A stretch of 34,775 bases of DNA from contig CACZPK010000116.1 of NCBI GenBank assembly GCA_902783035.1, positions 1 through 34,775 of the forward strand, in the 5' to 3' direction. The notes under the pieces are model-generated. The model was not told where the DNA came from. It worked only from the letters and a program-made list of their open reading frames with translations, and searched no databases. Below, one piece after another: positions 7,160 through 23,858 of this stretch. The stretch comes from Oscillospiraceae bacterium. Its GTDB lineage: Bacteria; Bacillota; Clostridia; Oscillospirales; Oscillospiraceae. Position numbers and translations under genes: made by a program. How positions within the stretch are numbered: the first letter of the stretch is position 1; each line of letters begins with the position of its first letter.

Positions 7160-7162
7160 ATA

Positions 7163-7564: not shown

Positions 7565-7581
7565 CCACGCCCATTCTGGCG

Positions 7582-7619
7582 ACCATTCCTTTCTGTGGCG
7601 CTGTCCATAAAGGAATGGT
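7582..7619. repeat. 11-bp hairpin in the convergent intergenic region
   Basis: Bases 7582-7592 pair perfectly with 7609-7619 around a 16-base loop; GCCCA (7569-7573) and TGGGC (7619-7623) could extend the structure. It is the first of three hairpins packed in 145 bases. Probably an RNA stability or dispersed repeat element. Confidence 0.5.
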
Positions 7620-7652
7620 GGGCATTTGTGCTTCCGGTCTGCCTTTCTGGCA

Positions 7653-7690
7653 CACAGGGGCTCCATCCCGTACGGGATGGAGCCCCTGTG
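7653..7690. repeat. perfect 38-bp palindrome
   Basis: Every base from 7653 to 7671 pairs with 7690 back to 7672, with no central spacer. It has no T run on either side, so it is not a classic terminator. A perfect palindrome of this length between convergent genes is what dispersed palindromic repeats look like, but only one copy is seen in this window. Confidence 0.7.
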
Positions 7691-7694
7691 CTGT

Positions 7695-7727
7695 AACCGC
7701 CGCGGCTTTTCAAGCTGCGGCGGTTTT
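7695..7727 (+). terminator. terminator of the floT-DUF2500 unit
   Basis: A 14-bp stem (7695-7708 with 7712-7725, one G-U pair) with a 3-base loop, followed by a short T run on the + strand. Its right arm encodes the C terminus of the convergent DUF4832 gene, whose stop codon (7710-7712) lies in the loop and first stem base. The same structure could slow polymerase coming from the right. Confidence 0.7.
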
Positions 7728-9119
7728 GTCGTAATGGTAGATGAGCTGAACGTCTCCCGCGAATTCAGCCTTCTTCCCGGCGTCGATCGCGAGCCTGACA
7801 TGATCCGTTCCGTCGGGGGATGTGATCGAAACGCCGACATAGAACGCATCCTCGATGGCGTCGGAGACCGGTACGCAGGCCTCGGCGCTGATTTCGTCCC
7901 CGGTGTTGAGCGAGCGCAGGTCAAGCGGCAGGATTTCCGTATACACCGCTTTTTTGTTGCGGTCCCAGATTGACACCGTGACGGGCCAATCAAAGAAAAA
8001 TCCGGCATTTCCGGCGTTGCGGAACGAAAGCGTGAGGCGGATTGCCTGATTGGCAAAGTCGTACTGCGTCCTGAGGCGGGAGACATAGATGCGGTATCCC
8101 ATCCGGCGCAGCACCGATTGAGCGGCGAGCGCGTATTCCTCCGCATTGGGGTCGGGAACCATTGGGCCGATGAAGGTCATGTTGGAAAGGGAAACAGAGG
8201 AGAGCACCTGGCCGATATCACTGCCGAGCATTACGTCCATCGGGGTGCTGCTGGTGAACTCGCCGCCGACCGGCGCCGTCCTGCCCCACGAGCCGGCGGG
8301 CTTCAAGGTCAGCGCTTCACCGCTTGTGCGCTGCGAACCGCCGTTTTGCAGCCATCCGAGCCACTCTTCCGTATCTGCCTCATCGCCCACCATATCGTTG
8401 AAAAATCCCACGCCGCCATCGACCGCAAAGTCGTAATTGCGCCGCGTGAGCAGTTTGGCATTGGTGAAATGCCCGGCATACAGTGCCGCATAGTCCGCGC
8501 AGACGCGCTCGTCCGGCATCAGGGAGCGGTCGCCGGCGTCGGAGGCATGCCATTCGCCCCAGTGCCCGAGGCTGCCCAGCTGCACAAAGGCGACGAAGTC
8601 GTCGCGATTGCAGTATTCCGCCAGCGCAGCGAGCGCCTTTTCATGATATGCCCGGAACGTTTCATCCGCATAATCCGGCGAATAACCCTTTCCCAGCGCG
8701 GTGTCGTAATGCGTTCCGTTTCCCGTTTTTTCGTAGAGCCAGCGGGGAATATCCAGATGATCCTCGCCGCGCGGAATGTCGCAGATAAAACGCAAAACGG
8801 CGTGCTTTCCGTCTGCGCGCCAGCGCGCAAGATGGTTTGCGCGCTCCAGCGCGTCCACGGCGAAAACTCCTTCACGCGGTTCCCACTCGGCCCAGGTCAG
8901 GGAGACGTAGACCAGCCGGCTTTTTTCGCAATAGGCAATGTTCTGTGCGTCCGGCGCAAAGCCCATCAGGGGATTGTCGATCACGGTGTGGTCGGGCGCG
9001 AAAGTGACGTCCGCGTTCAGGCGGGAGCGAAACAGAATATAGGATACAAGCCCGGCGATTGCGGCGCCCAGCACAAGAATGAGCGCATACTGCACGGCAA
9101 TGCTTTTATGCTTATCCAT
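7710..9119 (-). CDS. DUF4832-like membrane-anchored glycosidase-like protein
   Basis: A 469-residue protein with a cytoplasmic basic start, one membrane anchor (about 10-30) and an extracellular domain. Motifs NPLMGF (49-54), LTWAEWEPREGVF (74-86) and GHWGEWH (185-191) fit the DUF4832/glycoside-hydrolase-like TIM-barrel proteins; Glu188 in the last motif is a candidate acid. The C-terminal 120 residues look like a beta-sandwich. It is the last gene of the Pel-like operon and overlaps the DUF4956 gene by 8 bases. Because the PelA-like protein here lacks an N-terminal hydrolase domain, this protein is a reasonable candidate for the polymer-trimming or polymer-binding role. Enzyme activity is inferred, not shown by motif alone. 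Confidence 0.65.
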   Translation of the reverse strand: MDKHKSIAVQYALILVLGAAIAGLVSYILFRSRLNADVTFAPDHTVIDNPLMGFAPDAQNIAYCEKSRLVYVSLTWAEWEPREGVFAVDALERANHLARWRADGKHAVLRFICDIPRGEDHLDIPRWLYEKTGNGTHYDTALGKGYSPDYADETFRAYHEKALAALAEYCNRDDFVAFVQLGSLGHWGEWHASDAGDRSLMPDERVCADYAALYAGHFTNAKLLTRRNYDFAVDGGVGFFNDMVGDEADTEEWLGWLQNGGSQRTSGEALTLKPAGSWGRTAPVGGEFTSSTPMDVMLGSDIGQVLSSVSLSNMTFIGPMVPDPNAEEYALAAQSVLRRMGYRIYVSRLRTQYDFANQAIRLTLSFRNAGNAGFFFDWPVTVSIWDRNKKAVYTEILPLDLRSLNTGDEISAEACVPVSDAIEDAFYVGVSITSPDGTDHVRLAIDAGKKAEFAGDVQLIYHYDKTAAA

Positions 9120-9795
9120 TGTATTCCCCGTTGTACTGGATCAGGTTGACATTCTGCACGCCTGCCAGCGCGTCGATCTTTTCAACAAACGCCAGATTGT
9201 CGTGCCGGGACGCAAGCTCGACCGTCAGCTCGACCTGCCCCTTGCGGAGGGTTTTGGAACGAATCTGGTAGCGCTGCCGGCCAAAAAGGCGAAGGATCTC
9301 TGCGCCGGTTTCCTCGCCCTCATAGTGCACGACCAGAATGTAGATGATGCCCGCTTGCCTGCGCGCAAAAAACACATGGGCGAGGATCGCCATGACCAGC
9401 ATGGTCAATATGGCCAGCGGATAGATCCCCGCCGCCGTGATGATGCCGATTGAGATAGCCCAGAACAGGTAAAGCAGATCGATCGGGTCCTTGACCGCCG
9501 TGCGATAGCGGACAATGGACAGCGCGCCGACCATGCCCAGGGAGATCACGATATTGCTGCTGATCGCCAGCGTCAGCGCGCAGGTCAAAACCGTCATGCC
9601 CACCAGTGTCATGGCAAACGACGAGGAATAGACGACGCCCCCGTAATACCGGCGGTAGGTCGCGTAGATCAAAAGCCCGAGGACGACGGCGGCGGCCATC
9701 GCGATCAGAGCGGAAATCAGGAAATCGAGCGTGAGCGCCTTGCTCGACGCAAACGATTCCAGAACAGAATTCTTAAAATAGTCTCTTGCGTTCAT
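9112..9795 (-). CDS. DUF4956 integral membrane protein
   Basis: A 227-residue protein with about four membrane spans between residues 22 and 143 and a cytoplasmic ferredoxin-like tail of about 80 residues. The segment GALSIVRYRT (90-99) followed by KDPIDLLYLFWAISIGI is the hallmark of DUF4956. Genes of this family are often found beside VTC-like and CotH-like genes, as here; no reaction is known. It starts at ATG 9795, one base after the stop of the VTC-like gene, with GGAGG upstream. A longer open frame to 9843 runs into that gene and is not used. Possible roles are a channel or a membrane platform for the VTC-like enzyme; this is inference. Confidence 0.78.
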   Translation of the reverse strand: MNARDYFKNSVLESFASSKALTLDFLISALIAMAAAVVLGLLIYATYRRYYGGVVYSSSFAMTLVGMTVLTCALTLAISSNIVISLGMVGALSIVRYRTAVKDPIDLLYLFWAISIGIITAAGIYPLAILTMLVMAILAHVFFARRQAGIIYILVVHYEGEETGAEILRLFGRQRYQIRSKTLRKGQVELTVELASRHDNLAFVEKIDALAGVQNVNLIQYNGEYNG

Positions 9796-9796
9796 T

Positions 9797-10543
9797 TCAT
9801 TTCCTCCATCCCATGTGTGTCTTGCTGATCCCGGCGCACACATCCGTCAGGTGATGCGCTGCATCATAACACGCAACATACTTTGAAAACGCGGTGAATT
9901 CCTGTCCCTGCGACGGAAGCAGCCGCCCGATGAGTTGGGGAAGGAACTCCGTATACTTGACTTCCAGGATCACACGGCCCGGCTCCAGCGCGGGGAGCTG
10001 CGGCAGCGTGGGGTCAAAGATATCAAATCCGCCGATCGCCGCGCGCACATCGCTGTCAAAGGTGATCCGCACCGTACCCGCGTCCATGACCAGCGGGATG
10101 CGATCGTAGTCCACGATCACCACGGGACGCAGAAGGTTGCACATACACTCGGCGTAGAACTCCCGGAGCAGATTCGATTTTGCATCGAGCAAAAAGCGGT
10201 AGTCGCCGGTTAGAATCTGCTCAAATTCCTCGCGTGTGATGTCGGCGGATTCCTTGTAGATGTACGCCCCGCGTTTCGTTTTGCGCTCCAGCGCGATTTT
10301 GCCGTCACTGTAATTGTAGATCCGTATCCGCCATTTTTTTCGGGCGTATATGCCCATGCGCTTTTGCGAATAGGCGGATCGCGCCAGATCGTCAAAATAC
10401 AGGCTGCGGATGGTGTATCCGCCTTCCGCGGCGTGCGGGTCGAGCGACAAATGGGGTGTGAGGCGCCGCTTGAGCACTTCCGCCTCGCTGCGCGAGAGAA
10501 GATATTTCCATTCGTGCCGGTACCGCTGTGCCGGTTCAGTCAT
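9797..10543 (-). CDS. VTC-domain (polyphosphate polymerase-like) protein
   Basis: A 248-residue protein made almost entirely of a VTC (CYTH-like tunnel) domain: RHEWKY at 9-14, KKWRIRIY at 69-76, LERKTKRG at 85-92, YDR at 146-148, TFDSD at 161-165 and LEVKY at 193-197. These basic and acidic strands line the active tunnel in the yeast Vtc4 polyphosphate polymerase, which makes polyphosphate from ATP with a divalent metal. ATG 10543 is chosen because GGAAGGTGA lies just before it; a longer open frame overlaps the CotH gene. It is followed one base later by a DUF4956 membrane protein, a common pair. Bacterial members have no firmly known product, so polyphosphate synthesis is plausible but not certain. 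Confidence 0.8.
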   Translation of the reverse strand: MTEPAQRYRHEWKYLLSRSEAEVLKRRLTPHLSLDPHAAEGGYTIRSLYFDDLARSAYSQKRMGIYARKKWRIRIYNYSDGKIALERKTKRGAYIYKESADITREEFEQILTGDYRFLLDAKSNLLREFYAECMCNLLRPVVIVDYDRIPLVMDAGTVRITFDSDVRAAIGGFDIFDPTLPQLPALEPGRVILEVKYTEFLPQLIGRLLPSQGQEFTAFSKYVACYDAAHHLTDVCAGISKTHMGWRK

Positions 10544-10559
10544 GCGCGTCACCTTCCAT

Positions 10560-12293
10560 TCAGAGTTCGGGGGCGGGTACCGCGACGGTACCGTCCGGCA
10601 GAACGTAGAAGCACAGAACGCCGTGTACGGTGGTCTTCTTTTCTGTGCTGTAATGCTCGTACGCTTCCTGCGAACGGCCGCTTTCGGCATTCGCCGTGAC
10701 GCGGACAAAGTATTGCCCGGCGGGAAGCGCACCGGCTTCACAGGACGTCCCGGTGATGAGGTGCCTGTCGAGCAGCTTTTCCTGAAAATCCCAGGAGCCG
10801 GACAGCTCCACGGTGTAATGCACCGTTCCCGAGAGCGCGGAGGAGGATTCCCATGCCAGCGTCACCGTGCCGTCCGCGGTTGTCGGCGTGAGGATGTGGA
10901 AAGGCTGCGGCGTTTCCAGCGAATCATAGTAGGCGCGGTAATTGCGTTCGATTTGAGCGGAAAACTGCGCCAGAAGACGGTCGTAGTTGTTTTCCGTCAC
11001 GCGCGCGAACGCCGCGTCCGGCAAAGCGTAAAGATATGGACGCACGGTTTCGGCGAGCGCTTCGGCCCGTTCGGCCACATGCGTGCCCGAGAGCACGGAG
11101 GCGTGCAGCGTTTCGACGTATCCGCTCAGAGCCTCAACGCAGCGCGGGCTTTCCAAAATGCGGCGGAACAGCACAGACGATGCGTACAGGTGGATGCCTT
11201 TCCTCCAGCCGGGCGAATAGTCGGCGTCGCGCAAACGTTCATAGTCGGCGCGGAATGTGCCGTCAAGATCCCAGGGAATGATAGTGAACCGCTCTGTTCC
11301 GGTGGGACTGTAAAGGTAGAAATTTTCCGTGCCGGTATCCTGATTGCCTGTCAGGATATTGAACGCCATCCAGCCATACAGGTTGTCCGGGTCAAAATAG
11401 CGCGCAACGATGTCCTCAATGGCAACGGAACCGTCATTGACCGCGTCCAGCAGGGTGAACAGCGACGTATAATCGTCGCTTCCCTTTGCCTGCAGCAGCG
11501 TTTCAAACTTTGCTCTGTCATACGCGGGGGAGGTGGGCTGGACGAGCACATCCGCGTGGCGGGCAAAATCGAAATTAACCGCCTGATACAGTTCGCCCGA
11601 CTTGTCCAGATCGCGGTTGGACAGATAGCGCTTGTTGACCGGCTCGATCATCGTATAGAGCCCGCAGTCCACATAGAGCGCGTCCGGCCCTTCCGAGCGG
11701 TCTTTTACATAAAGGTGGACGAAACCGGTCCGGGTCGAAGGAACGCCGTCGACCTCCGTCAGCAGATCAAAGCACAGCTTGTTCGTAAAGCGGAACGGAT
11801 CGGTGAAGCTCTTGGCCAGCACAAAGGATTTCATTCCGGACAGACTGCCGCTGCCGGGGTTAATGTCGATCCGGTAACTTTTCTGCTGGCGCGTGGAGGC
11901 GTTTGCGCCGCTCAGGCGTATCGTGGCGTTGGGGGAGAAGCTGTCATAACCGAAGCTGCCGGGCGTGGCGCCCTCCTCGTTTCCGAACTGCACCAGCGCA
12001 TCGCACGTAAAAGGCTCCTCGCCGCGCTCCGCGTACCAGGACAGGCTGTGGGCGTTGAGCTGTGCCCATGTGTGCGCGACAGCGTCCCGCCCGTTCCCGA
12101 CGCACAGATACAGCACGCTTTCCCAGTTCTGCTCGGCATAAAGGGACGCCTTGTCCCGCACGGTAAAGGCCGCGGCGGAGGGGGCCTTCTCATACGGGTC
12201 GGGCAGCGTGATGCCGCAGCCGGAAAGCAACAGCGCCGTACACAGCGATATGAGCAGCGGGGTGTGTACCTTGCGTTTTTGATATCCGATCAT
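10560..12293 (-). CDS. CotH-like kinase lipoprotein (second copy)
   Basis: A 577-residue lipoprotein with lipobox LSGC (Cys26). The CotH kinase domain (about 55-450) keeps the residues expected for catalysis: GNQD (Asp319), a following Asn324, and IPWDLDGTF (Trp341, Asp342, Asp344), a counterpart of the metal-binding motif in B. subtilis/B. cereus CotH, which phosphorylates spore coat proteins. A fibronectin-III-like region follows (about 470-577). Facing the outside as a lipoprotein, it would need an external phosphate donor, which is odd for a kinase. It overlaps the first CotH-like gene by four bases (ATGA), and the VTC-like gene starts 16 bases after its stop. Substrate unknown; the operon suggests a secreted protein or the polymer itself. 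Confidence 0.82.
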   Translation of the reverse strand: MIGYQKRKVHTPLLISLCTALLLSGCGITLPDPYEKAPSAAAFTVRDKASLYAEQNWESVLYLCVGNGRDAVAHTWAQLNAHSLSWYAERGEEPFTCDALVQFGNEEGATPGSFGYDSFSPNATIRLSGANASTRQQKSYRIDINPGSGSLSGMKSFVLAKSFTDPFRFTNKLCFDLLTEVDGVPSTRTGFVHLYVKDRSEGPDALYVDCGLYTMIEPVNKRYLSNRDLDKSGELYQAVNFDFARHADVLVQPTSPAYDRAKFETLLQAKGSDDYTSLFTLLDAVNDGSVAIEDIVARYFDPDNLYGWMAFNILTGNQDTGTENFYLYSPTGTERFTIIPWDLDGTFRADYERLRDADYSPGWRKGIHLYASSVLFRRILESPRCVEALSGYVETLHASVLSGTHVAERAEALAETVRPYLYALPDAAFARVTENNYDRLLAQFSAQIERNYRAYYDSLETPQPFHILTPTTADGTVTLAWESSSALSGTVHYTVELSGSWDFQEKLLDRHLITGTSCEAGALPAGQYFVRVTANAESGRSQEAYEHYSTEKKTTVHGVLCFYVLPDGTVAVPAPEL

Positions 12294-14083
12294 GTTTCAC
12301 CTGATTCCAAAGCGGTTATGGTTCCGTCGGCGTGGACGACAAAGGCGTAACAGCCGTAGCTCTTGCCGTAATCATCCACATTGTAGTAGTCGAAGCACTC
12401 CATGGAGCGGCCCGACGCGTTTGTGGCAACGACCCGGAGGAAGTAGGTTCCCGGCGTAAGGCTGCCCGTGACGGCGAGCGGCACCCGAAGTCCGTCTTCC
12501 CGGTCGATCACGTCCGTAAACAGGGGGTCCCGCGCGAGAACGTAGCGATAGGTGATCTCTTCTCCCCGGCAGTCATAGGATGCGCCCCAAGTCAGCACAA
12601 GACCTTCGCCGTCCGGATCGGCTGCGGGTACGCCGACAAAAAACGGCCAGGGTTTTTGCAGGCTTTCCTGAAAGACGGCGTAGTTTGCATCGACCTCGGA
12701 GCCGATCCGGGCGGTCAGCCTGTCGTATACGGCGCGGTTTCGGATCGGTGCGTTGCCCAAATCCGGCTGCGCAAAGAGGAACGGCGCCGTGACCTGCCGG
12801 CAGCGCTCCACCTTTTCCGAAACAACGGCGGCGGTGATGTGGTTTTGATACAGGTCGTCCACCGCGCGCATCAGCATTTGCCGGTACGCTGGCGCCTGCA
12901 TCATGCGCCGGATCAGCGTCAGCCCCAGATACTGCGTCAGCCCGTGTTCCCACGATTCTGCTTCGTGATAGCCCGTTTCGGCGAGATAGGAGGTGCGGAA
13001 TGCGGCATCCATATCCCAGCAGATCATGTAAAACTTTTGCGAATTCAGCGGGCTGTATAAGAACAGATTGCGGGCGCCGACGTCATAGTTCCCGATCAGG
13101 ATATTGAACGCCATCCAATAGCAGATGTTCTCCGCGTCAAAATGTTCGTCGATGATCCGCTCGATCGGAATGGCGTAGTTGTTGACCTGCTCGATCACGG
13201 ACTGCAGTTTTCCGAGGTCCTCGTCGCCCTTGATCTCCAGATAGCTCTCCAACTGCGCACGGTCAAATTCCGGATCGTCCGGGGACATCATGACCGCTTC
13301 ATATTTGCCCCATTCAAAGAAGTTCACCTTGTAGAGCTGCCCGTTTTCATCCAGCCCATGGCTGCGCAGATAAGTGCGGTTGACCTGCTCGACCATGGTG
13401 TAAAGGCCGTAGTCCGCAAAGCCCTGCGCGTGATCCTCCGTCCGGTCATCGACGTAGAGGTGGACGAACTGCGTCCGGCCGCTGAGCAGCTGCGGGATCG
13501 AAGTCAGAAGGTCGTAGCTCAGCTTGTTGAGAAAGCGGTACGGGTCGTTCTGGTGCTTGTTCAGATTCAAGGTGCGCTGCCCGCGGAATGTGCCCCTGTC
13601 CTCCTTGATCCGTATTTTGTAATTCTTCTGGGCGGATTGGGAAGACGCCTGCCCGCGAATCTGCACGGATACGTTTGGCACCGTTTCGCCGTAGCCGAAA
13701 GAACCTTCGCCGACGCCCTCGCCGGTTTCGTCGATCTGCAAAATGCCTTCCGCCTTATAACGGTCGATCCCCTTCGCATTGTAATAATAAGCGGAGTGGG
13801 CGTTGACTTCCTCCCAGGTGTGGTCGCTCCCGTCGGCGCTGTTGCCGCGGCTGACCGTCAGGTACATGGTGATGACGGAGAGGTTGTCCTCCGCCTCATA
13901 GAGCGCACGGTTGTCCCGAAGAACGCCCTCGGTTGCCTCAGCCTTTTCAATCGGGCGGACCGTTTCCGGCACACTTTCCTCCGCACGCTCCGCGTCGGCG
14001 GCGGGAAAAACTGCGGCGCAGCCGGCGGCCAGCGACAGCATCAGCGCGGCGAAGGCAAACAAGATCGCTTTTTTATGAATCAA
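12290..14083 (-). CDS. CotH-like kinase lipoprotein (first copy)
   Basis: A 597-residue lipoprotein with lipobox LAAGC (Cys22), a linker rich in Glu/Ala, a CotH kinase domain (about 65-470) and a C-terminal fibronectin-III-like region ending in a short CYAFVVHADGT strand. Key residues are kept: GNYD (Asp334), Asn339 and CWDMDAAF (Trp356, Asp357, Asp359). It shares order and many short blocks with the adjacent copy but has clearly diverged, so the two are old paralogues rather than a recent duplication. The start is TTG at 14083, overlapping the pelG stop as TTGA, with AAGGAAGGG upstream; no ATG gives a full signal peptide. Tight coupling to pelG ties this kinase to polymer export. Confidence 0.82.
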   Translation of the reverse strand: MIHKKAILFAFAALMLSLAAGCAAVFPAADAERAEESVPETVRPIEKAEATEGVLRDNRALYEAEDNLSVITMYLTVSRGNSADGSDHTWEEVNAHSAYYYNAKGIDRYKAEGILQIDETGEGVGEGSFGYGETVPNVSVQIRGQASSQSAQKNYKIRIKEDRGTFRGQRTLNLNKHQNDPYRFLNKLSYDLLTSIPQLLSGRTQFVHLYVDDRTEDHAQGFADYGLYTMVEQVNRTYLRSHGLDENGQLYKVNFFEWGKYEAVMMSPDDPEFDRAQLESYLEIKGDEDLGKLQSVIEQVNNYAIPIERIIDEHFDAENICYWMAFNILIGNYDVGARNLFLYSPLNSQKFYMICWDMDAAFRTSYLAETGYHEAESWEHGLTQYLGLTLIRRMMQAPAYRQMLMRAVDDLYQNHITAAVVSEKVERCRQVTAPFLFAQPDLGNAPIRNRAVYDRLTARIGSEVDANYAVFQESLQKPWPFFVGVPAADPDGEGLVLTWGASYDCRGEEITYRYVLARDPLFTDVIDREDGLRVPLAVTGSLTPGTYFLRVVATNASGRSMECFDYYNVDDYGKSYGCYAFVVHADGTITALESGET

Positions 14084-15567
14084 CGCGGTGCCCTTCCTTT
14101 CCCGGCTCCGATCCCGCGCGCTTCCTGCCGCAGATCGAGCCGCCTGCTGAGCGCCGCAAACAGACCGCGCTCCAGACCGGGAACCAGATTTTGCCTGGAC
14201 AGGAGAAAATACGGCAGCCGTCTGCTGTACCAGTCCAGACGCGCCAGCGCAAAGAAATAAAAACAGATCGCGCCTGCAAAAAAGCCTGTCCCGAGAAACT
14301 GCGGATTTCCGTACCGGATCTGCCAGATCGAAACGCCGGTGCTGACGAGCGCAAACGCTGCGGAACCGACGAGAGCGCCGGCGTAATCCTCAAAATACAG
14401 CTCAATGAGCATCAGAGAGTTGGCGATGGCGTAAGCGCCGTACCCCACGCATAAGAATTTGTAGATCATCATCGACAGAGAGCTGATGCCGGGGACAAGG
14501 TACGTCACCACGGGCGGGCCGAGAACGATGAACAGGATCGTCGTGAAAACCTGCTTGCAGCCGAGATAAACGGATTCGCGCCGAAGCATATCGAGCATTT
14601 CTTTTTCCGCAAGCCGGATGTCCCGGATCGCGCCGCGGTCGTTGAACAGGGCATAGTAGTTGCTGTACTTGGGATAAAAGTTGACCTCCATCGAGACGAC
14701 AAAACCGACGGTTGTGACCAACAGCGAAAAGAATGCGAGCAGGGCGGGGACGTCGTACGCCGGCGCACCATAGAAAAGTCCCTGGATCTGTACCCGTAGC
14801 GGCCCGAAATACATGACCACGATGTGACCGAAAAGGCCGAGCCGGATCATGCCGCCGGAAAGAGCGAGCGAGGGATATTTGTCAAACCAGCGCAGGAAGG
14901 AAAAGTGGCTGCCCTCGCTGCGCGGAAAGTAGTCGAGCATCAGCTTGAGGTACCGGACGGCGAGCAAACCGTAGGCGGCGATCACGCAAAGCAGGAGACT
15001 TTCCGTGCTGACGATTCCGAGAAAGACCGTCAACAGCGCCAGCAGAAAGCCGAGCATCAAAGAGATGGCAAAGGCCAGAACGATCGCCTGAAAGTCCCGC
15101 AGCGCGGTCATATAAATCATTTCCGTCCATACGACGATCAGTACCAGCGCGAGCCACAGGCACAGTACGCTCGGCACGGCGCCGCCGCCGGCAAAAAGCA
15201 AAAAGCCGCCGTAGAGCGCAAAACACAGCACAAGCTCGACGGCCAGCGCCCCGAAAAACGACGGCATGACCTTTTCTTCCCTTTGCTCATAGATCATATC
15301 CGAGACAAAGCGGGTGAGCACCATGTTAAACCAGGTCGTCACAAAAAGCGCGGCGAGAAGACTGTAGGTCAGCATGCAGCTCAACAGTTCCTGCTCATGC
15401 TCCGCCATGCCGCCGACGCGCGCGACAAAGGAGACGCCGACGAGCAGGAAAATACCGAGAAACGTCGGCCCGATCGTGACGATGCCGGAGTACCCGTATG
15501 CCTTGCACAGGTTCAAAATGCCCTTTTTTTGAAACAGCCTTCTCAGACTGAAGCCGATTCCTGCCAT
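14080..15567 (-). CDS. pelG: PelG-like exopolysaccharide export membrane protein
   Basis: A 495-residue protein with about 12 membrane spans and the MAGIGFSLRRLF N terminus typical of PelG. PelG belongs to the MOP flippase superfamily and, with PelD, PelE and PelF, forms the inner-membrane synthase complex that moves the growing Pel chain through the membrane. Charged loops such as RFVSDMIYEQREEKVMPS are in the cytoplasm. Length is a little above that of P. aeruginosa PelG (about 456). It overlaps pelF by 25 bases and ends in a TTGA overlap with the first CotH gene. ATG 15567 follows GAGG within the pelF tail. Confidence 0.92.
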   Translation of the reverse strand: MAGIGFSLRRLFQKKGILNLCKAYGYSGIVTIGPTFLGIFLLVGVSFVARVGGMAEHEQELLSCMLTYSLLAALFVTTWFNMVLTRFVSDMIYEQREEKVMPSFFGALAVELVLCFALYGGFLLFAGGGAVPSVLCLWLALVLIVVWTEMIYMTALRDFQAIVLAFAISLMLGFLLALLTVFLGIVSTESLLLCVIAAYGLLAVRYLKLMLDYFPRSEGSHFSFLRWFDKYPSLALSGGMIRLGLFGHIVVMYFGPLRVQIQGLFYGAPAYDVPALLAFFSLLVTTVGFVVSMEVNFYPKYSNYYALFNDRGAIRDIRLAEKEMLDMLRRESVYLGCKQVFTTILFIVLGPPVVTYLVPGISSLSMMIYKFLCVGYGAYAIANSLMLIELYFEDYAGALVGSAAFALVSTGVSIWQIRYGNPQFLGTGFFAGAICFYFFALARLDWYSRRLPYFLLSRQNLVPGLERGLFAALSRRLDLRQEARGIGAGKGRAPR

Positions 15568-16970
15568 CTTTTGAATACCTCGTCGTATGTGTCCAGATAC
15601 TTCCGGATCATGTCTTCATGCAAAAAGTATTTTGCCACGCGCTCCCTTGCGGCAATGCCCATCCGATAGCGCCTTTCCGGGTGGATGCACAGCGTCGTCA
15701 TCGCACCCGCCAAAGCCTCGATATCCATCGGCGGGACGCAAATGCCCGCGCTGCCGAAATCGTCGTCCTCTGCGACCTTGCTCATCAGTTCCTTGCAGTT
15801 GCCGACGTCCGTCGTCACACAGGGACGGCCCGCGGCAAAGGACTCCAGCACCGACAGCGGCATGCCCTCCGAAATGCTGGAGAGCACCGTGAAGTCAAAA
15901 TCGCCCATTCGCTCGATGACGTTTATGGGGCCGGTAAAAACGATGTCCCGCACACCGAGACGCTTCACGAGCGCACGGCACTCTTCGGCGTACTGCGTAT
16001 CGTCCTCCGGCCCGGCGATAAACAGCCGGGCGTTGCTCACGCGCTCCTTTACACGGGAGAACGCATAGATCATGGTCTTGACGTCCTTGATCGGGGCAAT
16101 GCGCAGGATCGCGCCGATGTCGATATATCCGTTCGGCTGCTTGGACGCGATATCGCGAAAACGCTCAAAATGTATCCCGTTGCCGATGCAAACGCATTTG
16201 CCGGGATCGCATCCCATTTCGATTTGCATGGCTCTGGCACCGGGGAAAAGGCTTGTGATCATCGACGCCTTTTCATATGCGCCTGCCGAGAGCATGAAAA
16301 AGAAACGTACCCAGAATTTCTTAAAGGCGGGTATGACCCAGCCGGCGCGAATGATCTCTTCCTCGCGCTCGCGCGTGTAGATGCCGTGCTCGGTAATTAG
16401 ATACGGCACATGGTACTTATAGCTTCCCAGCCGCGCGAGAATGCCGCTGTAGCCCGTCGCGATCGAATGGTACAGGTCGGCCTTCGGGATTTCGGTGTGG
16501 AGGATGTAAAGCACGGGGAGGAACATGGAGCGGATCGTGTGGAAGAAGTCGGAGAAAGCCGTGTAGGCGTATTCCGCTTCACAGATATTGGTCAGGATAT
16601 CCAGAAATTCCCGGCTCATGAGAAAGGAGAGCGGGTCGATCCGGTCGTCGGCATACATGCGAAACAGCGTTTCCCAGTCGGGGTCGGCACAGTCGATAAA
16701 ACGGTGCAGCGTGTCGATCTCCCCGGCGGAAAAACGGTATTTTCGGGCGTGCTTCGTCTGCTTCAGCGCGTCGTCCAGAAAGACCTCGTGGATCTCAACC
16801 ACGTTGTCCGGAAGGGTGTAGCGGAATTTGCCCCGCATGGAGGAATTGGCGGCGACCGCCCAGATGACGAACTCGTGCTGCGGCATTGCCTGAATATACT
16901 GATGGATCCAGGTGGAAACGCCGCCGGTGACATAGGGGTAACAGCCTTCCAGTATGACACAGATTCTCAT
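15543..16970 (-). CDS. pelF: PelF-like GT4 glycosyltransferase
   Basis: A 475-residue soluble glycosyltransferase of family GT4 (GT-B fold). The N terminus MRICVILEGCYPYVTGGVSTW and the HTEIPKADLYHSIATGY region are characteristic of PelF; the C-terminal domain has the EX7E motif in EGMPLSVLESFAAG, where the nucleotide-sugar is bound. In Pel systems this enzyme polymerises the GalNAc/GlcNAc chain from UDP-sugars in the cytoplasm, docked to PelD/E/G. It starts at ATG 16970, overlapping the pelA-like stop as ATGA. The precise sugar cannot be read from the sequence. Confidence 0.93.
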   Translation of the reverse strand: MRICVILEGCYPYVTGGVSTWIHQYIQAMPQHEFVIWAVAANSSMRGKFRYTLPDNVVEIHEVFLDDALKQTKHARKYRFSAGEIDTLHRFIDCADPDWETLFRMYADDRIDPLSFLMSREFLDILTNICEAEYAYTAFSDFFHTIRSMFLPVLYILHTEIPKADLYHSIATGYSGILARLGSYKYHVPYLITEHGIYTREREEEIIRAGWVIPAFKKFWVRFFFMLSAGAYEKASMITSLFPGARAMQIEMGCDPGKCVCIGNGIHFERFRDIASKQPNGYIDIGAILRIAPIKDVKTMIYAFSRVKERVSNARLFIAGPEDDTQYAEECRALVKRLGVRDIVFTGPINVIERMGDFDFTVLSSISEGMPLSVLESFAAGRPCVTTDVGNCKELMSKVAEDDDFGSAGICVPPMDIEALAGAMTTLCIHPERRYRMGIAARERVAKYFLHEDMIRKYLDTYDEVFKRWQESASV

Positions 16971-18850
16971 GAGACACCTTGCTCCAAATGGATTTCAACC
17001 GTATCCGACCGGCACTCGATCAGATACAGCCCGTCCGCGACGGCGCGGAAAGAGCCGCCGCTGACGCTGCCGATCTGTGCGCCGTCGTTCACGCGCAGCA
17101 ACATCCACGCCTCGTCCGTGAGCCGATCCAGCGACAGATGAATCGTATCGCCGCTGCGCTCGCGTGAGACGCCGAGCAGATCATAACGCTGCACGGCGGC
17201 GGCCAGCTCGGAACCGGTCAGGTTCCGGATGGCGGGGTAACTTTCATACAGCCAGTCCATGTAGCGCTCCAGATTGCCGAAGAGCGTTTTCCAGCCGAGC
17301 GCTGCGCCGCGGTCCTCGTCGAGCACGTCGTCCGGGTGGAGAAAATGTGTGTTGACCAGATGAAGGTTCAGCTCGGAGAGCGCGGCAATTTTCATGTAAT
17401 CGTCGATCACGCAGCCCGACGTGATGCGGGGCGTGTTGATGATCCCGTCCGCTGCGGAAACGTCAAATTCCTGCTCGTAGGACATGTCCACCGGGAAGTA
17501 GACCGCGGCGATCGAACGCACCGAGGTGTCGCCCAGAAGGTCGCGCCCCTCTGCGGACAAGACGTTGGACGGGGGCACATAGACCTGCAGGCTCTCATCC
17601 GGAAACAGACCGTGCGTAAAGGCAAACACCTCGTCGAGAGAGCGGCGCATGTCCGACACGGACGGCCAGTGGACGTAGGAGTCGTACTGGTCCTTATAGT
17701 CGAAATTTTCCAGCACGAGCGGCATGTGATTGTATCCGTGAATACCGATCTCGCCGCCGGAGCGCAGCAGCAGATTGCCGAAATACAAAAACCGGCCGGT
17801 TTCTGCGTTCCGCCGGAACGTGCCGCTGACCCGATCGGAATAATCCTCGATGACCAGACCCGTAAAGCGGATGCCGCGGGCGTTTCCGAGACGGTATATG
17901 TCGTTCCACCAGATGCGGGAATAGAAATCGCTGATTGAAACATTGTAGTCCCGCGTGATGTAAGCGGCATCCCCTTCCGGAACGGGAGAGGGGAAATCGT
18001 CGATAAAAAAGGCGGCGCCGTTGATAACGGGATATGCGCAATAATCGCCCAGCAGGCTGTAAGCGGCGCAGTGGATGCCGCGGTACGCTTTTTCCATAAT
18101 GCCGAAGTTGTCGACAACGACCGTGCCCCGCCCCACCGTGCGCCGCCAGATCAGCGGTATGGGGTATTCGCCCGTGGATTCCAGATACACCGCGCAGTCG
18201 TCCGTGAGCGACAGGCTCAACGAAGATTCGTACGCATCCATAATGGCATAGACCCGCGCCTGAGCGCCGATCATGAAATCCCGCGTAAAATGAATGCCCT
18301 CCACAAGCGCCGGCTCACCGCTGCCGATGATGCCCAGCGTCGTGTACAGGGTTTCAAAGTTGCCGGAGACTTCAGGCGGATAGGCGATCATCAGGCTGCC
18401 GCCGTCCCGGACCCACGAGCGGATGTCCGCGACGGTCTCGCGCAGTTTGGCATAATGCGTAACGGCAAGCACGATCCGCGCATACTGCCCGAGCGTTTCC
18501 GCGCGCAGGTCAGACACGCTGCATGTGTCGTATGCCTCCCGCATTTGCTCCAGCACAGGCATGTAAACGCCCTTCGCCTTCCGGCTCGTCGCATCGCCGT
18601 CCTCCGTGACCAGCAGGCACCGGATGCCTTGCGCGTTGGAAGGCGCTTCGGACTTCAAACGGATCAGTTCCTCCCGCGGAAGAAGGCTGAGGCTTTCGTC
18701 ACGCAGCGAGTAGCGGACATTGTGCTGCACCGCAACCAACGCCGCCGCAAGCAGACAAAACACGACGCCGAGCAGATACATGCCGCCGAACCGGCTCCGG
18801 TCGGGCGAAGCTGTACTTTTATTGCTTTTTTTAGCCAACAAGCTGTCCAT
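16967..18850 (-). CDS. PelA-type polysaccharide deacetylase (DUF2194-like)
   Basis: A 627-residue protein with a single N-terminal membrane anchor (about 23-42), a flavodoxin/amidotransferase-like domain (about 75-265), a carbohydrate deacetylase domain (about 270-500) and a C-terminal beta-sandwich. Metal-site signatures are FFIDDF (Asp284/Asp285) and EIGIHGYNHMP (His371, His375), as in PelA-type deacetylases that remove acetyl groups from Pel polymer outside the membrane. Unlike P. aeruginosa PelA it has no N-terminal glycosidase domain and is membrane-tethered, matching the deacetylase-only PelA of Gram-positive pel operons. Its 5' end overlaps pelE by 20 bases and its 3' end overlaps pelF by four. 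Confidence 0.85.
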   Translation of the reverse strand: MDSLLAKKSNKSTASPDRSRFGGMYLLGVVFCLLAAALVAVQHNVRYSLRDESLSLLPREELIRLKSEAPSNAQGIRCLLVTEDGDATSRKAKGVYMPVLEQMREAYDTCSVSDLRAETLGQYARIVLAVTHYAKLRETVADIRSWVRDGGSLMIAYPPEVSGNFETLYTTLGIIGSGEPALVEGIHFTRDFMIGAQARVYAIMDAYESSLSLSLTDDCAVYLESTGEYPIPLIWRRTVGRGTVVVDNFGIMEKAYRGIHCAAYSLLGDYCAYPVINGAAFFIDDFPSPVPEGDAAYITRDYNVSISDFYSRIWWNDIYRLGNARGIRFTGLVIEDYSDRVSGTFRRNAETGRFLYFGNLLLRSGGEIGIHGYNHMPLVLENFDYKDQYDSYVHWPSVSDMRRSLDEVFAFTHGLFPDESLQVYVPPSNVLSAEGRDLLGDTSVRSIAAVYFPVDMSYEQEFDVSAADGIINTPRITSGCVIDDYMKIAALSELNLHLVNTHFLHPDDVLDEDRGAALGWKTLFGNLERYMDWLYESYPAIRNLTGSELAAAVQRYDLLGVSRERSGDTIHLSLDRLTDEAWMLLRVNDGAQIGSVSGGSFRAVADGLYLIECRSDTVEIHLEQGVS

Positions 18851-19871
18851 CTTTTTCCTTTGCTTCTTCGTCCCAAAAACGCAGCATGCCCTTTAGCTCC
18901 GGCGAGGCATAGATATCCCTTGCCCGGATCTCGTCAATGACCTCTTTCATTCGGGCGCTGTCTTTTCGCAGCATGGCGCTTTGCATTTTGAACAGGAAGA
19001 TGCGCTCCCGGTCGGGCCAATGCTCCGTCATACGCTCAATGTCCCGGTCAAGGGCTGCCGCGTCGCCAAGCTGCAGGTCGATGTCCGCCTTCTGGTTCAA
19101 TAGCGTCCATCGCCCTTTGCGCTCGCCTTTTGCAAGTTTTTCCTCCAGCAGTGCGGCAAATTGCCGCAGCTGTCCTTTGAGCGCATCTCCCGCCAGAAGA
19201 CCGCTTGCGATATACTTTTCCAGCACCGCCCGATACTCGTCGTTGAGCGCCTCGTCCTGCGGCGACTGTTCCTTCCGCCGCAGGATGTCCTGAAATGCCA
19301 GATCAAATTCCTTCTGTATTTCCGCCAGCGCCGTGGCGGCGTAGTGCACGACCTCCGTGTCCCCGTTCGCCTTGGCCGCGTAAAGCTGGGAAATGTAGTC
19401 GCCGGGATTCGTGTAGAGCACGTCGATGATGAGCGCCCGCCTTGTGGCGGTGTCGTTTACGATGAGCGCTTCTTCCAGCGGGACGACGGTTTCGGTCAGG
19501 GTGTCTTCATCCATGACGATGCTCCGGCTGACGTCGTAGAGGCTGTCTGCCGACGCATCCTCCGGCGCCTCGCCTTCCTGATACGAAATTGCCTCCGCCA
19601 GCGGGACGACGGCCTTGTCCTCCAGGCTGAACGGAGTGCTTAGCACCGTTTCATCCGAGCGCGGACGCAGAGCCTCCGTAACGACGCCCGGACGGTCTGC
19701 ACGCCGGTCGGAAATACCCCTGCACAAGAGAAGGGCGGCACCCCAGACGGGAAGGAAAAGGGCGTTGAAGAGCATGATATATTCGCACCCGATCACCCGG
19801 GCGCGGCGCAGCACGAGCAGGGCGAGACAGAAAACCATATGAAAACCGAGAAAAAACAGTAAGAGTTTCAT
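18831..19871 (-). CDS. pelE: PelE-like membrane/TPR protein
   Basis: A 346-residue protein with two N-terminal membrane spans (about 1-22 and 28-51), an acidic linker, and a helical C-terminal region (about 135-340) whose repeated helix pairs look like TPR motifs. This matches PelE, the scaffold that binds PelD's cytoplasmic part and helps hold PelF at the membrane. Sequence conservation of PelE is low, so the call leans on position between pelD and pelA and on the domain layout. It begins three bases after the pelD stop and overlaps the deacetylase gene by 20 bases. Alternative: an unrelated TPR membrane protein recruited to the operon. Confidence 0.75.
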   Translation of the reverse strand: MKLLLFFLGFHMVFCLALLVLRRARVIGCEYIMLFNALFLPVWGAALLLCRGISDRRADRPGVVTEALRPRSDETVLSTPFSLEDKAVVPLAEAISYQEGEAPEDASADSLYDVSRSIVMDEDTLTETVVPLEEALIVNDTATRRALIIDVLYTNPGDYISQLYAAKANGDTEVVHYAATALAEIQKEFDLAFQDILRRKEQSPQDEALNDEYRAVLEKYIASGLLAGDALKGQLRQFAALLEEKLAKGERKGRWTLLNQKADIDLQLGDAAALDRDIERMTEHWPDRERIFLFKMQSAMLRKDSARMKEVIDEIRARDIYASPELKGMLRFWDEEAKEKDGQLVG

Positions 19872-19874
19872 GCG

Positions 19875-22037
19875 TCACATGCCTTCCGCGATCGTGTAGT
19901 CGATCCCGCTTTGCGTCAACCTGTCTCCGATGATGCGGAAAATTTCCCGGTCGGTCTGCGTGAGCAGCAGGTAGTGCTTCCCGTCCGTGCCGTTTCCGAT
20001 GATGTCGCTGTGCCGGATCATGCTTTGCAGACGGCTGCCCGTTTCCGTAAAGTCGTCCGTGTGGATGTCCAGCAGCAAGTAACTCGCGACGCCGGCCTCC
20101 GCCATCTTCCGCTGGGAGTCCAGCTCGATCACAAAGTATTCCGGCAGAAGGATTTCCGTCCCCGGATAGAACTTTTCGCGCTCGATTGCGTTTTGATAAG
20201 CCAACGCCCGCATAAATGCCAGACGGATCAGGTGGCACAGGATCGTGAACAGGTTCATGTAGTAAAGATCCATCTGGCTGGACGACGCCTCGTATATGCA
20301 GATCAGCAGGCGGACGGCATCCCCCTCCACGATCGCGTAGGCATAGGCGGGCAGCCCTTCCCGGAACGAGGTGTTTTTCCACGTTTCGCGGTTGCGCACG
20401 ACTTCGTACATCTCACGGCATGCGCCGATGTTCAGCGACTTCCTCAGACGGGTCGACATTTCCCGCGAGCAGGCGACCAGACGTCCGTACTTCTGATAGT
20501 CGTCCATGATGTAAATGGCGATCGTGTGATTGTCCAGAATGTGCTCCAGCGTTTCGATGCCATTCATGAAGATGCTGGCGGGCGTGGCGCTGTTGAGCTT
20601 CTCGACGGCGTCAAAGATCTTGCCGAAACTGTCCTTATAACCGAGGATCTGCCGCTTGTAGGTTTCTTTGTTCTCGATTACGGACAGGTATACGCTGTTG
20701 AGAAAGCGATATTTCTCCCGCAGCGTGCGTGCCTGTTCCTCCGCAAAATGGAGCTTTTGGCTGCGTGCGGCGCTTACATAGCCGGTGATCGAACCCGCCA
20801 TCAGGTAGATCGCGAACGGGAGCCAGTAGTCCATGTTGTAGAAAAGCATCGCGCCCGTGACGCCGATCTTCGCGTAATCGAACAGCAGGGAAACGCATTC
20901 CAGCAGGCCGGCAAGCGCGCCGATCAGCATGCCGTGCGTCGTGCCCAGAATGACGACAAAAAAGAGACGCAGATCAACGTAGCGGAAATAGACGGAATCG
21001 GCGGTGTATCGGAGCAGAAGCTGGACGAGCGCAAACAGAATGATCAACTCGGCCAGCTTGCGCACCGGCTCGGACAGCGCGGAGAAGAACGCGGCAAACC
21101 TTTGCCGGAGACCGGGCTTTTTCGACCGGGCGCTTTGATAAGCGCCGTATAAAAGCGGCAGGTCGCCGACAACGTCGTCGGATGCGATGAAACCGTAATC
21201 CTGACGGAGCTTGCGCGCCTCGGCGTCTTCGTTGAGAACAAAGGAACAGGATGCATCCTCATACGAAATGCTGGCTTCGGCGGCGCACTTTTGCAGTTCG
21301 CCGCCCAGCTCACCGCAGGTGCGGCGATAGCCGCTGAGCGCGGTGTAGACCCCACCCTGCGCCATCGTTTCCTCCGTGACGGAGATCAAAAGCTCCGTGA
21401 GGTTGTGGTTGGACAGGAAATCCACGCGCTGGGACGCACGGCAGGGAAGCTGAAGCGGCTTGCCGTCGGCGATCGTTTCAAAGAGCCGGCCCAGATAATT
21501 GCCGCGGTTGAACATCTTTGCAATATACGGGGCGCGGATGATGACGCACTGAACGCCGTTTCGTTCGGCGGCAAATTGAACGAGCGCTTCCATTTGCGCG
21601 CAGTCGAAGGACTGCTCGGAGTCGTATATCTTTTTGCCGAAGTCGTCAGTGCTTTCGGACAGCGTGTAGCGCAGGCTGTTGACCGAGGAAACCACTATGA
21701 GCCTGCCAACCGCACAGGATGCGCAGCGCCGCACAAGATTTTCAATCATCTCGCGTTCGTTCGCCAGCCCGTCCCCACCGTCGGCATAACCGGAAAAATA
21801 CCACACCGCATCCGGTGCGTAAGCGTACAGGAGCCGTTCAAAGTCCTCGGACGCCGGGTCCCTGCGATAGATATGTATCCGTTTGGACACGGAGTGGCGG
21901 GGCGCTTCGCTTTCGCCGCACACGACCACGCGATAGTACTGCGCGGCGAGCCCCAGAGACTCACGGTCCAGCAGCTCTGTTTTACCGCAGATCAGCACGC
22001 ATGAGGGCTGCGCGGAGTTTTCGCTTTTGCGATGCAA
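19875..22037 (-). CDS. pelD: PelD-like cyclic-di-GMP receptor with N-terminal SDR-like domain
   Basis: About 720 residues in four parts: an SDR/epimerase-like domain (1-250), membrane helices (about 327-425), a short coiled coil (about 427-460) and GAF (about 470-610) plus degenerate GGDEF (about 620-720) domains. The GGDEF signature is lost (GNGTDGK, 681-687), but the upstream RHSD (675-678) keeps the RxxD inhibitory-site pattern that binds cyclic di-GMP in PelD. The SDR part looks inactive: the Gly-rich loop is eroded and Phe144/Gln148 stand where the Tyr/Lys pair of an SDR is expected. Start: TTG 22037 lies 5 bases after GAGGTGA; GTG 22046 is too close to that site. Expected role: switch for Pel synthesis at the membrane. 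Confidence 0.85.
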   Translation of the reverse strand: MHRKSENSAQPSCVLICGKTELLDRESLGLAAQYYRVVVCGESEAPRHSVSKRIHIYRRDPASEDFERLLYAYAPDAVWYFSGYADGGDGLANEREMIENLVRRCASCAVGRLIVVSSVNSLRYTLSESTDDFGKKIYDSEQSFDCAQMEALVQFAAERNGVQCVIIRAPYIAKMFNRGNYLGRLFETIADGKPLQLPCRASQRVDFLSNHNLTELLISVTEETMAQGGVYTALSGYRRTCGELGGELQKCAAEASISYEDASCSFVLNEDAEARKLRQDYGFIASDDVVGDLPLLYGAYQSARSKKPGLRQRFAAFFSALSEPVRKLAELIILFALVQLLLRYTADSVYFRYVDLRLFFVVILGTTHGMLIGALAGLLECVSLLFDYAKIGVTGAMLFYNMDYWLPFAIYLMAGSITGYVSAARSQKLHFAEEQARTLREKYRFLNSVYLSVIENKETYKRQILGYKDSFGKIFDAVEKLNSATPASIFMNGIETLEHILDNHTIAIYIMDDYQKYGRLVACSREMSTRLRKSLNIGACREMYEVVRNRETWKNTSFREGLPAYAYAIVEGDAVRLLICIYEASSSQMDLYYMNLFTILCHLIRLAFMRALAYQNAIEREKFYPGTEILLPEYFVIELDSQRKMAEAGVASYLLLDIHTDDFTETGSRLQSMIRHSDIIGNGTDGKHYLLLTQTDREIFRIIGDRLTQSGIDYTIAEGM

Positions 22038-22084: not shown

Positions 22085-23041
22085 TTAATCGGCGGAGTGG
22101 TTGAGAACACGTCGGTTCTCCAGCGCAAAGATGCGGTTGCTGAAAGCGCCGGCGGGCGTCTGTGCCAGCGTTTCGCGGCAAATCTCCGCGCGGCTGTCGA
22201 GCATGTCGATGTATGAGAGCAGCTCGGCTTCCGCACAGGCCGGACGTACGGCCGCGCCGAACTCCGGCTGGCCGTGGTGTGAAAGGATCAGGTGCTGCAA
22301 CAGCACGGCCTTCTCCTCGGGCACGTCCAGCGCGCGGGCAAGCTCGCCCACTTCCTCGGCGCACATGACCAGATGCCCCAGCAGCTGACCCTTGCGCGAA
22401 TAATCCACCGCCAGACCGAGGGGGGAGAGCGCGAATTCCTGCTCCTTTCCAAAATCGTGGAGCAGGGTGCCCGCCAGCAGAAGACTGCGGTCGACAACAT
22501 CGGGATAGAGTCCCGCGACAAAATCCGCGAGGGCGAGCATGTTTGCCGTGTGCATCAAAAGACCGTTCAGAAAGCCGTGATGGACGCTTTTGGCGGCGGG
22601 GATGGAAAGAAACGCCTGCTTGTGGCGCGCGAGCATTTCCCGGCAGAGGCGGCGATAGTCCTCGTCCTGTATCGAATCGACCAGTGACACGACATTCCGA
22701 AACACGTCGTCCGCGTCGATCGGCGCGGCGGGGACAAGAGAGGCGAGATCCACACGCTCGGCGTCCGCGGCGAGGCGGATCTGGTCAAGCGTGACCTGCG
22801 GGGTGCCGCGGTATTCGCCGACCGAACCGGAAACACGGACGATCCGGCCCGCATCCTTCTCCGTGAGCGGACCGCTGTAATCCCAAAACTTTGCCCCGAC
22901 CGACGCCGTCCGGTCGTTGAGCGTTGCGCTGAGGAACGGCTTGCCGCCGCTTGTCAGACGCAGCTGGACGTCCTGCAAAATGTAGAAGCCGCTTACGCGG
23001 CTACCGATGGTGAGATCGGCGATGGCCTGATGAGGCTCCAT
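22085..23041 (-). CDS. yhaM: 3'-5' exoribonuclease YhaM
   Basis: A 318-residue protein with an N-terminal OB-fold nucleic-acid-binding domain (about 10-95, with FLSATLNDRTASVGAKFWD) and an HD phosphohydrolase domain (about 150-300; His164, LLHDFGK with His195-Asp196, and HHG near 256). This is the layout and length of YhaM, a metal-dependent exonuclease that trims RNA and some DNA 3' ends. ATG 23041 follows CGGAGG. Its stop lies 47 bases before the pelD start and I see no promoter or terminator in between, so pel transcription may begin at or above yhaM. Confidence 0.88.
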   Translation of the reverse strand: MEPHQAIADLTIGSRVSGFYILQDVQLRLTSGGKPFLSATLNDRTASVGAKFWDYSGPLTEKDAGRIVRVSGSVGEYRGTPQVTLDQIRLAADAERVDLASLVPAAPIDADDVFRNVVSLVDSIQDEDYRRLCREMLARHKQAFLSIPAAKSVHHGFLNGLLMHTANMLALADFVAGLYPDVVDRSLLLAGTLLHDFGKEQEFALSPLGLAVDYSRKGQLLGHLVMCAEEVGELARALDVPEEKAVLLQHLILSHHGQPEFGAAVRPACAEAELLSYIDMLDSRAEICRETLAQTPAGAFSNRIFALENRRVLNHSAD

Positions 23042-23829: not shown

Positions 23830-23858
23830 TTGCAACCCAATTGCGGTTATGATATAAA
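23830..23858 (+). promoter_or_regulatory. promoter of pheST
   Basis: TTGCAA (23830-23835) and TATAAA (23853-23858) with a 17-bp spacer. The leader is only about 35 bases, so no T-box or attenuator can be fitted in it, unlike many amino-acyl-tRNA synthetase operons of Bacillota. Confidence 0.7.

Follow-up and report, generated by a model that had tools for sequence, protein, structure and literature searches.

Why does a clostridial operon for a Pel-type exopolysaccharide run on into genes for CotH kinases, a VTC domain protein, a DUF4956 membrane protein and a DUF4832 protein? We addressed this question in a 34,775-nucleotide stretch of DNA from an Oscillospiraceae bacterium (assembly GCA_902783035.1, contig CACZPK010000116.1, positions 1 to 34,775; hereafter the window), in which ten minus-strand open reading frames (ORFs), all overlapping or near-touching, occupy positions 7710-22037. 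The window holds a clostridial version of an already described Pel operon type, and comparison with other genomes suggests that the extra genes form a separate surface module carried by many bacteria without Pel. We tentatively read the whole as a Pel-type polymer locus with a plugged-in phosphate-based surface module that would tune polymer amount and cohesion, a reading that we hold to be somewhat more apt to be wrong than right.

Curated profiles identify eight of the ten genes (DUF4832, DUF4956, VTC, two CotH, PelG, PelF and DUF2194; Table 1), and in the same Pfam and NCBIfam scan PelD and PelE had no curated family match over cut-off. A preliminary description of the window, made from its sequence, had presented a Pel-like operon to which a block of CotH, VTC, DUF4956 and DUF4832 genes is attached; the profiles and the conservation of the block in other genomes confirm this, and its ten ORFs are all present with coordinates and spacings correctly given. 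The five core genes and four accessory families are those of the operon reported by Whitfield 2020 (PMC7112168), where cotH, a polyphosphate polymerase gene, DUF4956 and DUF4832 are contiguous with pelDEADAFG in streptococci and clostridia. The accessory genes of the Streptococcus intermedius C1365 pel operon (SIR_1594 CotH, SIR_1593 VTC, SIR_1592 DUF4956, SIR_1591 DUF4832 hydrolase) are likewise those of the window, except that there is one CotH gene where the window has two in tandem. The remark in the preliminary description that no function had been described for the combined system is out of date, since the system is already in print (PMC7112168; PMC12345266), with gene deletions and a DUF4832 protein that is an active hydrolase in S. 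intermedius.

The Pel core looks functional, judging from its predicted proteins. PelA_DA aligns over 502 residues (E 1.2e-66) with chain 9zau_A, an entry listed merely as a predicted membrane protein whose residues match the numbers in the Bacillus cereus PelA_DA paper at an offset of 25. In this alignment the window protein keeps the motifs IDDFPSP, HGYNH, PRITSG and HFLHPDD, which carry D262/D263, H350/H354, P405, R458, H488 and D491 in B. cereus numbering, residues whose roles are described in PMC13254593 and which include the catalytic Asp/His set. The B. cereus pelDEADAFG operon (PMC7112168, PMC13254593) shares its core genes and PelA_DA active-site residues with the window, but its accessory genes are galE and pelA_H where the window has the CotH block. 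PelD consists of an N-terminal region, a membrane segment and a degenerate GGDEF tail with an RHSD (RxxD) motif; its start is uncertain, as the in-frame ORF extends to 22364. The N-terminal region, which has no match of its own, may be SDR-like by analogy with PMC7112168, and a PDB sequence search with PelD gave one chance match only. The R and D of the motif are kept in 16 of the 16 aligned rows that reach the region (alignment of 17). In B. cereus, PelD binds cyclic di-GMP (c-di-GMP) through RxxD; the window PelD keeps this site, whereas streptococci are reported to have lost that domain (PMC7112168). The window's genome has 33 GGDEF matches. Homologues of PelE were found only by a profile seeded with the window protein.

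The DUF4832 protein carries E189 (WGEWH) and E287 (GGE), each with at least 93% conservation across 15 sequences; the pair would suit a glycoside hydrolase. Its DUF4874 match (26.2 bits) lies under the cut-off of 30.1, and a PDB sequence search returned weak matches to a fimbrial subunit only. As a separate observation, one pel locus (L004) has two DUF4832-profile matches beside its pel genes, with CotH, VTC and DUF4956 absent nearby; the copy that was scanned (13210-14526) has strong DUF4832 and DUF4874 matches. Overall the locus would make and finish a Pel-type N-acetylgalactosamine/galactosamine (GalNAc/GalN) exopolysaccharide, with PelD sensing c-di-GMP through its RxxD site, PelF polymerising, PelG exporting, PelA_DA removing acetyl groups from the amino sugars and the DUF4832 enzyme trimming or releasing the polymer.

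The preliminary description had suggested looking for the same gene order elsewhere in Clostridia and for tracking of the block with pelFG; recurrence of the order, and co-inheritance with pelFG where the block is present, were both found. The order PelE-PelA_DA-PelF-PelG-CotH-CotH-VTC-DUF4956-DUF4832 recurs in Oribacterium sp. WCC10 (L104) and in an Oscillibacter metagenome-assembled genome (MAG; L105), the pelD of both lying outside the fetched flank, and a Clostridia MAG (L109) has the same order from PelA_DA onward; all three, like the window, have tandem CotH genes before VTC. Such recurrence is not due to chance. Pel with the CotH/VTC/DUF4956 triad was also found in Peribacillus acanthi (L125), Lysinibacillus telephonicus (L136) and Cytobacillus massiliigabonensis (L161), and every one of 20 Pel loci that carry the triad has CotH before VTC, in a single shared gene order. 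Pel-free loci mostly differ from it: the order CotH-VTC-DUF4956 is present in 8 of 64 pel-free CotH loci. In two of these, L107 and L110, the contig stops right before CotH, and either may be a Pel locus. Across 17 complete Pel loci, PelG protein distances correlate with those of DUF4956 (0.91), VTC (0.86) and CotH (0.82), against a PelG-PelF yardstick of 0.96; none of 2000 permutations was as high, with no species-tree baseline for vertical descent. On a tree of 170 VTC+DUF4956 pairs the Pel label changes 6 times versus 18.3 in shuffles, the tree being a quick one in which loci cut by contig ends were scored as Pel-free and long branches were flagged. We read this as few joinings of the module to pel followed by joint inheritance.

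The core of the block, however, occurs mostly without pel. Of 391 genomes of the window's class, 196 have DUF4956, 192 of them over cut-off; PelG exceeds its cut-off in 15 and reaches E 0.001 in 19. DUF4956 is also found in 12 of the 15 genomes with PelG over cut-off, so that 12 of 196 DUF4956 genomes have PelG over cut-off. Neighbourhoods were read around 15 PelG loci, the window being one and the other 14 fetched, and around 86 DUF4956 loci from as many genomes; 80 of the 86 were taken in family-score order and the last six (G035, G207, G092, G202, G098, G262) from lower down. Picking was among the matches listed, and the Pel-type DUF4956 of the window scores low on that model. A further set of 80 named loci consists of those that ranked highest, out of 581, for a query weighted towards Pel; neither set is random, and operon extension was approximate (gene calling was greedy, and the window's own chain came out short). 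Eight of the 15 PelG loci have CotH, VTC and DUF4956, two have CotH followed by the contig end and one ends right after PelG. PelG lies within 10 kb of none of the 86 DUF4956 loci, a count made with family-score picking that disfavours Pel-type DUF4956.

The last count and the genome totals (DUF4956 in 196 of 391, PelG in 15, both in 12) would fit a block that merely neighbours Pel and is unrelated to it. The invariant order in all 20 Pel triad loci, the overlapping genes of the window, the PelG-module distance correlations (with their missing vertical-descent baseline) and the deletion phenotypes of S. intermedius described below argue against this, and we regard incidental adjacency as the most improbable of the explanations. 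It had been named in the preliminary description as a finding that would undo the proposed system; what stands of it is that the core is mostly found without pel, which indicates that the block did not originate as part of Pel, and what does not stand is that the two are joined haphazardly.

What does the block consist of? Of 94 DUF4956 genes, 93 have VTC on their own strand at a distance of no more than 400 bases. Next to this constant pair we found two kinds of partner. One is CotH; the other is the Cthe_2159 family (PF14262, annotated as carbohydrate-binding), to which 37 of 43 downstream genes scanned belong, the 43 coming from 49 unlabelled first downstream genes. A further scan covered 57 proteins: 29 from the 34 upstream genes, 26 from the 28 in second downstream position and 2 from the 49 in first. 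Within 6 kb, the 86 DUF4956 loci have CotH in 15 cases and Cthe_2159 in 45, and the 80 named loci have CotH in 61 and Cthe_2159 in 13, with both partners together in none of either set. Where at least 3 kb is available on each side, the counts for CotH, Cthe_2159, neither and both are 11, 35, 21 and 0 of 67, and 42, 6, 3 and 0 of 51. Fisher p-values for the exclusion are 3e-6 for the 86 loci and 9e-11 for the 80, values that ignore shared descent. CotH and Cthe_2159 are exclusive alternative partners of a constant VTC-DUF4956 core.

Two of the 64 pel-free CotH loci join the triad to other polymer-synthase operons. In one (L082) VTC-DUF4956-CotH is followed by MBOAT, AlgX/DHHW-like and GT2-PilZ proteins, parts expected of an O-acetylated, c-di-GMP-responsive polymer system. 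In the other (L103) the same three genes precede an unassigned protein of 764 residues, then a HEAT protein and then a glycosyltransferase of family 2. The latter has, with DUF4956, the layout of NELoc-2 of Clostridium perfringens (PMC2879425, PMC11677781), which groups VTC, a membrane protein of about 225 residues, CotH, a HEAT protein and a glycosyltransferase; we infer that the membrane protein is DUF4956. A later paper adds a polysaccharide deacetylase to NELoc-2, and no pel genes are named there. In 34 of the 64 pel-free loci there is no further operon gene, and the commonest neighbours found, in the scan of 57 proteins and in one of 65 of 74 genes from 29 of the 30 loci having any, are two-component regulators. 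The published remark that the three-gene arrangement could not be found outside Pel loci (PMC12345266) does not hold here, as the CotH/VTC/DUF4956 set is common without PelG, the exact order being rarer. Searches of titles and abstracts, subscription papers excluded, found no publication linking Cthe_2159 with VTC or DUF4956, and no mechanism for CotH/VTC/DUF4956 beyond the Pel and C. perfringens papers. Two other papers besides PMC7112168 name DUF4956, just in expression results.

The VTC protein points to phosphate chemistry. Its best solved relative by sequence profile is the yeast polyphosphate polymerase Vtc4 (6.5e-8), which is also the nearest fold (3g3r, E 2.7e-13) to a model with a predicted local distance difference test (pLDDT) score of 93.5; the top 13 rows of the fold search are VTC proteins, ranking above the other tunnel enzymes listed. 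As a single-sequence query against the PDB the protein gave no match. Twelve residues, among them the basic tunnel positions and metal-binding Glu, are invariant in 72 sequences (R9, E11, K13, K70, R72, E86, K88, R159, E194, K196, S220 and K221), and we take them to be the Vtc4 active-site positions. Neither PPK1 nor PPK2 had a match in the window's genome, which is 85% complete. The DUF4956 model (pLDDT 80.9) has five helices within residues 23-144, followed at 150-221 by an ACT-like domain; the matches of the latter are regulatory domains, including the C-terminal domain of Mycobacterium tuberculosis MgtC (2lqj). Likeness to MgtC is confined to this domain, and membership of the MgtC family was rejected (PF02308, 11.7 bits versus 31.4; NF007431, 22.8 versus 214). 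The conserved stretch SLGMVGALSIVRxR sits in the helical part, its conservation being partly by construction since the named loci were found with the pattern GA[LF]SI[VI]R[FY]R[TSA]. A PDB sequence search with DUF4956 had no match, fold comparison of the ACT part showed no Vtc1-like protein or channel among the rows listed, a result that does not count against such a likeness, and a plasmid search gave five distant records that were not used.

These proteins allow two further readings. VTC-DUF4956 might be a general bacterial unit for forming polyphosphate at the membrane and moving it out of the cell, where either of two interchangeable surface proteins, CotH or Cthe_2159, would use it. The unit would act alone in most genomes and would have entered the Pel, GT2-PilZ/MBOAT/AlgX and GT2/HEAT operons on separate occasions. 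On this account an exported CotH kinase would draw on polyphosphate for the phosphoryl groups that it requires beyond the cell, where adenosine triphosphate (ATP) is scarce; at other loci Cthe_2159, as a polysaccharide binder, would be the user. We consider the general unit doubtful. Slightly more doubtful still is that VTC and DUF4956 make and export polyphosphate as a polyanion that cross-links the cationic deacetylated polymer, in a complex organised by CotH or Cthe_2159. The VTC fold and residues, the constant pairing with a membrane protein and the alternative partner from a family annotated as carbohydrate-binding all accord with cross-linking, but export and a channel role of DUF4956 are hypothetical, DUF4956 matched known folds only in its ACT part, and the S. 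intermedius VTC mutant still aggregated.

CotH proteins in the loci were assigned by domain-based search, and both window copies (Pfam E-values 3.9e-56 and 1.2e-62) are predicted kinases by domain and residues. The cotH1 residues D334/D357 align with CotH D228/D251 (alignment to 5jd9; spacing of 23 in both), and both copies keep all three acidic positions (D/D/D). Loss of these residues inactivates Bacillus subtilis CotH, D228Q and D251A being inactive (PMC7821199). All three positions are kept in 24 of 26 Pel-locus CotH proteins longer than 350 residues, both window copies included and a PelG-fused CotH excluded; an N-terminal hydrophobic segment is present in 26 of 26 and a lipobox in 17. 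The two exceptions are extra copies after DUF4956 (L010, 13964-15685; L014, 232-2301) with the catalytic Asp replaced by K or G, likely pseudokinases. The L014 copy also ends in what by eye alone is a LysM-like tail.

The excluded case is from Claveliimonas bilis c-25 (L106:4179-7445), where PelG (residues 1-453) and a CotH domain (633-962) share one open frame of 1088 residues, followed by a second CotH. This shared frame, together with the position of CotH between pelG and VTC in the 20 Pel triad loci, raises the prospect that CotH phosphorylates the sugar polymer itself and yields a zwitterionic Pel, and sugar kinases do exist among secretory kinases. We nonetheless think it very unlikely, as the triad also occurs with other polymer synthases and alone, and the known CotH targets are proteins (PMC7821199).

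Single-gene deletions in S. intermedius bear on function. Pel production there requires the five core genes but not the four accessory ones; DUF4956 and CotH mutants show aggregation reduced by more than 50% in sputum medium, with Pel amount up in the former and down in the latter (PMC12345266, 2025). Altered Pel in these deletions and an ACT-like sensor domain on DUF4956 would also suit c-di-GMP-independent control by protein phosphorylation, as put forward by Whitfield 2020 (PMC7112168), in which a Pel protein would be the substrate of CotH and VTC/DUF4956 would adjust how much phosphate is available. The window's genome retains GGDEF proteins and an RxxD PelD, however, and the triad often occurs without Pel. 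Furthermore, CotH is exported according to its N-terminal signals, and so could reach only extracytoplasmic parts of Pel proteins. We therefore judge such control unlikely, if worth keeping in view.

In the reading that we prefer, CotH-CotH-VTC-DUF4956 would be a separate surface module welded into the Pel operon, dispensable for polymer synthesis and tuning the amount of polymer kept on the cell and cell cohesion. Cytoplasmic VTC would act with DUF4956 at the membrane to form polyphosphate or a related phosphoanhydride, the ACT-like domain of DUF4956 serving as the sensor, and the exported CotH kinases, adjoining PelG, may use this product to act on a phosphate-bearing surface target. Sequence and structure comparisons establish the protein identities, the kept catalytic residues, the gene order and the constant VTC-DUF4956 pair with its exclusive partners, whereas polyphosphate synthesis, consumption of its product by CotH, the CotH target and cohesion tuning in this species are inferences. 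Several observations weigh against this. S. intermedius VTC and DUF4832 mutants still aggregated (PMC12345266), which leaves the importance of the VTC step for cohesion without support, and the opposite Pel shifts in DUF4956 and CotH deletions are not predicted by a single linear pathway. The ACT-like domain suggests regulation rather than transport, and polyphosphate formation by this VTC is a prediction from sequence and model. Four of the 15 PelG loci have no triad in the fetched region. Neither partner lies within 6 kb at 26 of the 86 DUF4956 loci and 6 of the 80 named loci, so that a surface partner need not adjoin VTC-DUF4956. Finally, the PelG-CotH frame of C. bilis, the single case among 27 PelG frames, contains an internal ATG and a lipoprotein signal, and may thus be a fusion or two separate proteins.

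Table 1. Genes of the operon, listed in the direction of the minus strand; spacing is in bases and refers to the gene in the next line
Gene	Product	Coordinates	Strand	Basis of assignment	Spacing
pelD	PelD, degenerate GGDEF tail with RxxD	19875..22037	-	Position; homologues at the same place in other Pel loci; GGDEF tail	gap 3
pelE	PelE	18831..19871	-	Position; homologues at the same place in other Pel loci	overlap 20
pelA_DA	DUF2194 polysaccharide de-N-acetylase	16967..18850	-	Pfam DUF2194 1.1e-139	overlap 4
pelF	GT4 glycosyltransferase	15543..16970	-	Pfam DUF3492+GT4; NCBIfam PelF 351.7 bits (cut-off 100)	overlap 25
pelG	Exporter	14080..15567	-	PF16933 399.3 bits (cut-off 29), 3e-119	overlap 4
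cotH1	Exported lipoprotein with CotH kinase domain, LAAGC lipobox	12290..14083	-	Sequence	overlap 4
cotH2	Second CotH lipoprotein, LLSGC lipobox	10560..12293	-	Sequence	gap 16 (VTC start taken at 10543)
VTC	VTC domain protein, triphosphate-tunnel fold	9797..10543	-	PF09359 136.1 bits (cut-off 23), 1.8e-39	gap 1 (DUF4956 start taken at 9795)
DUF4956	Membrane protein, ACT-like domain at the C terminus	9112..9795	-	Pfam DUF4956 9.8e-11	overlap 8
DUF4832	DUF4832/DUF4874 protein, probable anchored or secreted glycoside hydrolase	7710..9119	-	DUF4832 43.1 bits (cut-off 29.2), 5.6e-11	

Long plus-strand ORFs over the operon were treated as shadows in DNA of 58% G+C, and a promoter and terminator scan was uninformative (promoter-like sites 2 versus 6.0 expected; terminator-like sites 27 versus 18.0 expected). 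Antisense ORFs at 5582-8146 and 23847-27356 (minus strand) were rejected as genes; they overlie flotillin and PheST, and the latter ORF has no Pfam match. About 50 bases ahead of pelD, and in the same orientation, lies the end of an HD-domain gene (22085-23041, minus strand) that may be transcribed together with pelD; its product has a weak OB-fold match and is presumably YhaM-like. At 3551-4944 (plus strand) a Sigma-70-type, extracytoplasmic function (ECF)-like factor gene runs 4 bases into the DUF4367 gene that comes next; NELoc-2 of C. perfringens is likewise reported with a sigma and an anti-sigma gene. An odd fusion is encoded at 31475-33415 (minus strand), a glycogen/starch synthase (PF08323, 5e-75) that carries at its C terminus an SCP2 sterol-carrier-like domain (PF02036, 1.8e-10, residues 558-635).

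The accessory block of this Pel operon type has so far been without explanation, and the comparison recasts it as a widespread two-gene core with a choice of surface partner, correcting in passing the printed remark on the three-gene arrangement. Because the module is widespread outside Pel, its role can be tested there. Overall the comparison suggests that polyphosphate or phosphate chemistry takes place on the surface of many Gram-positive bacteria.

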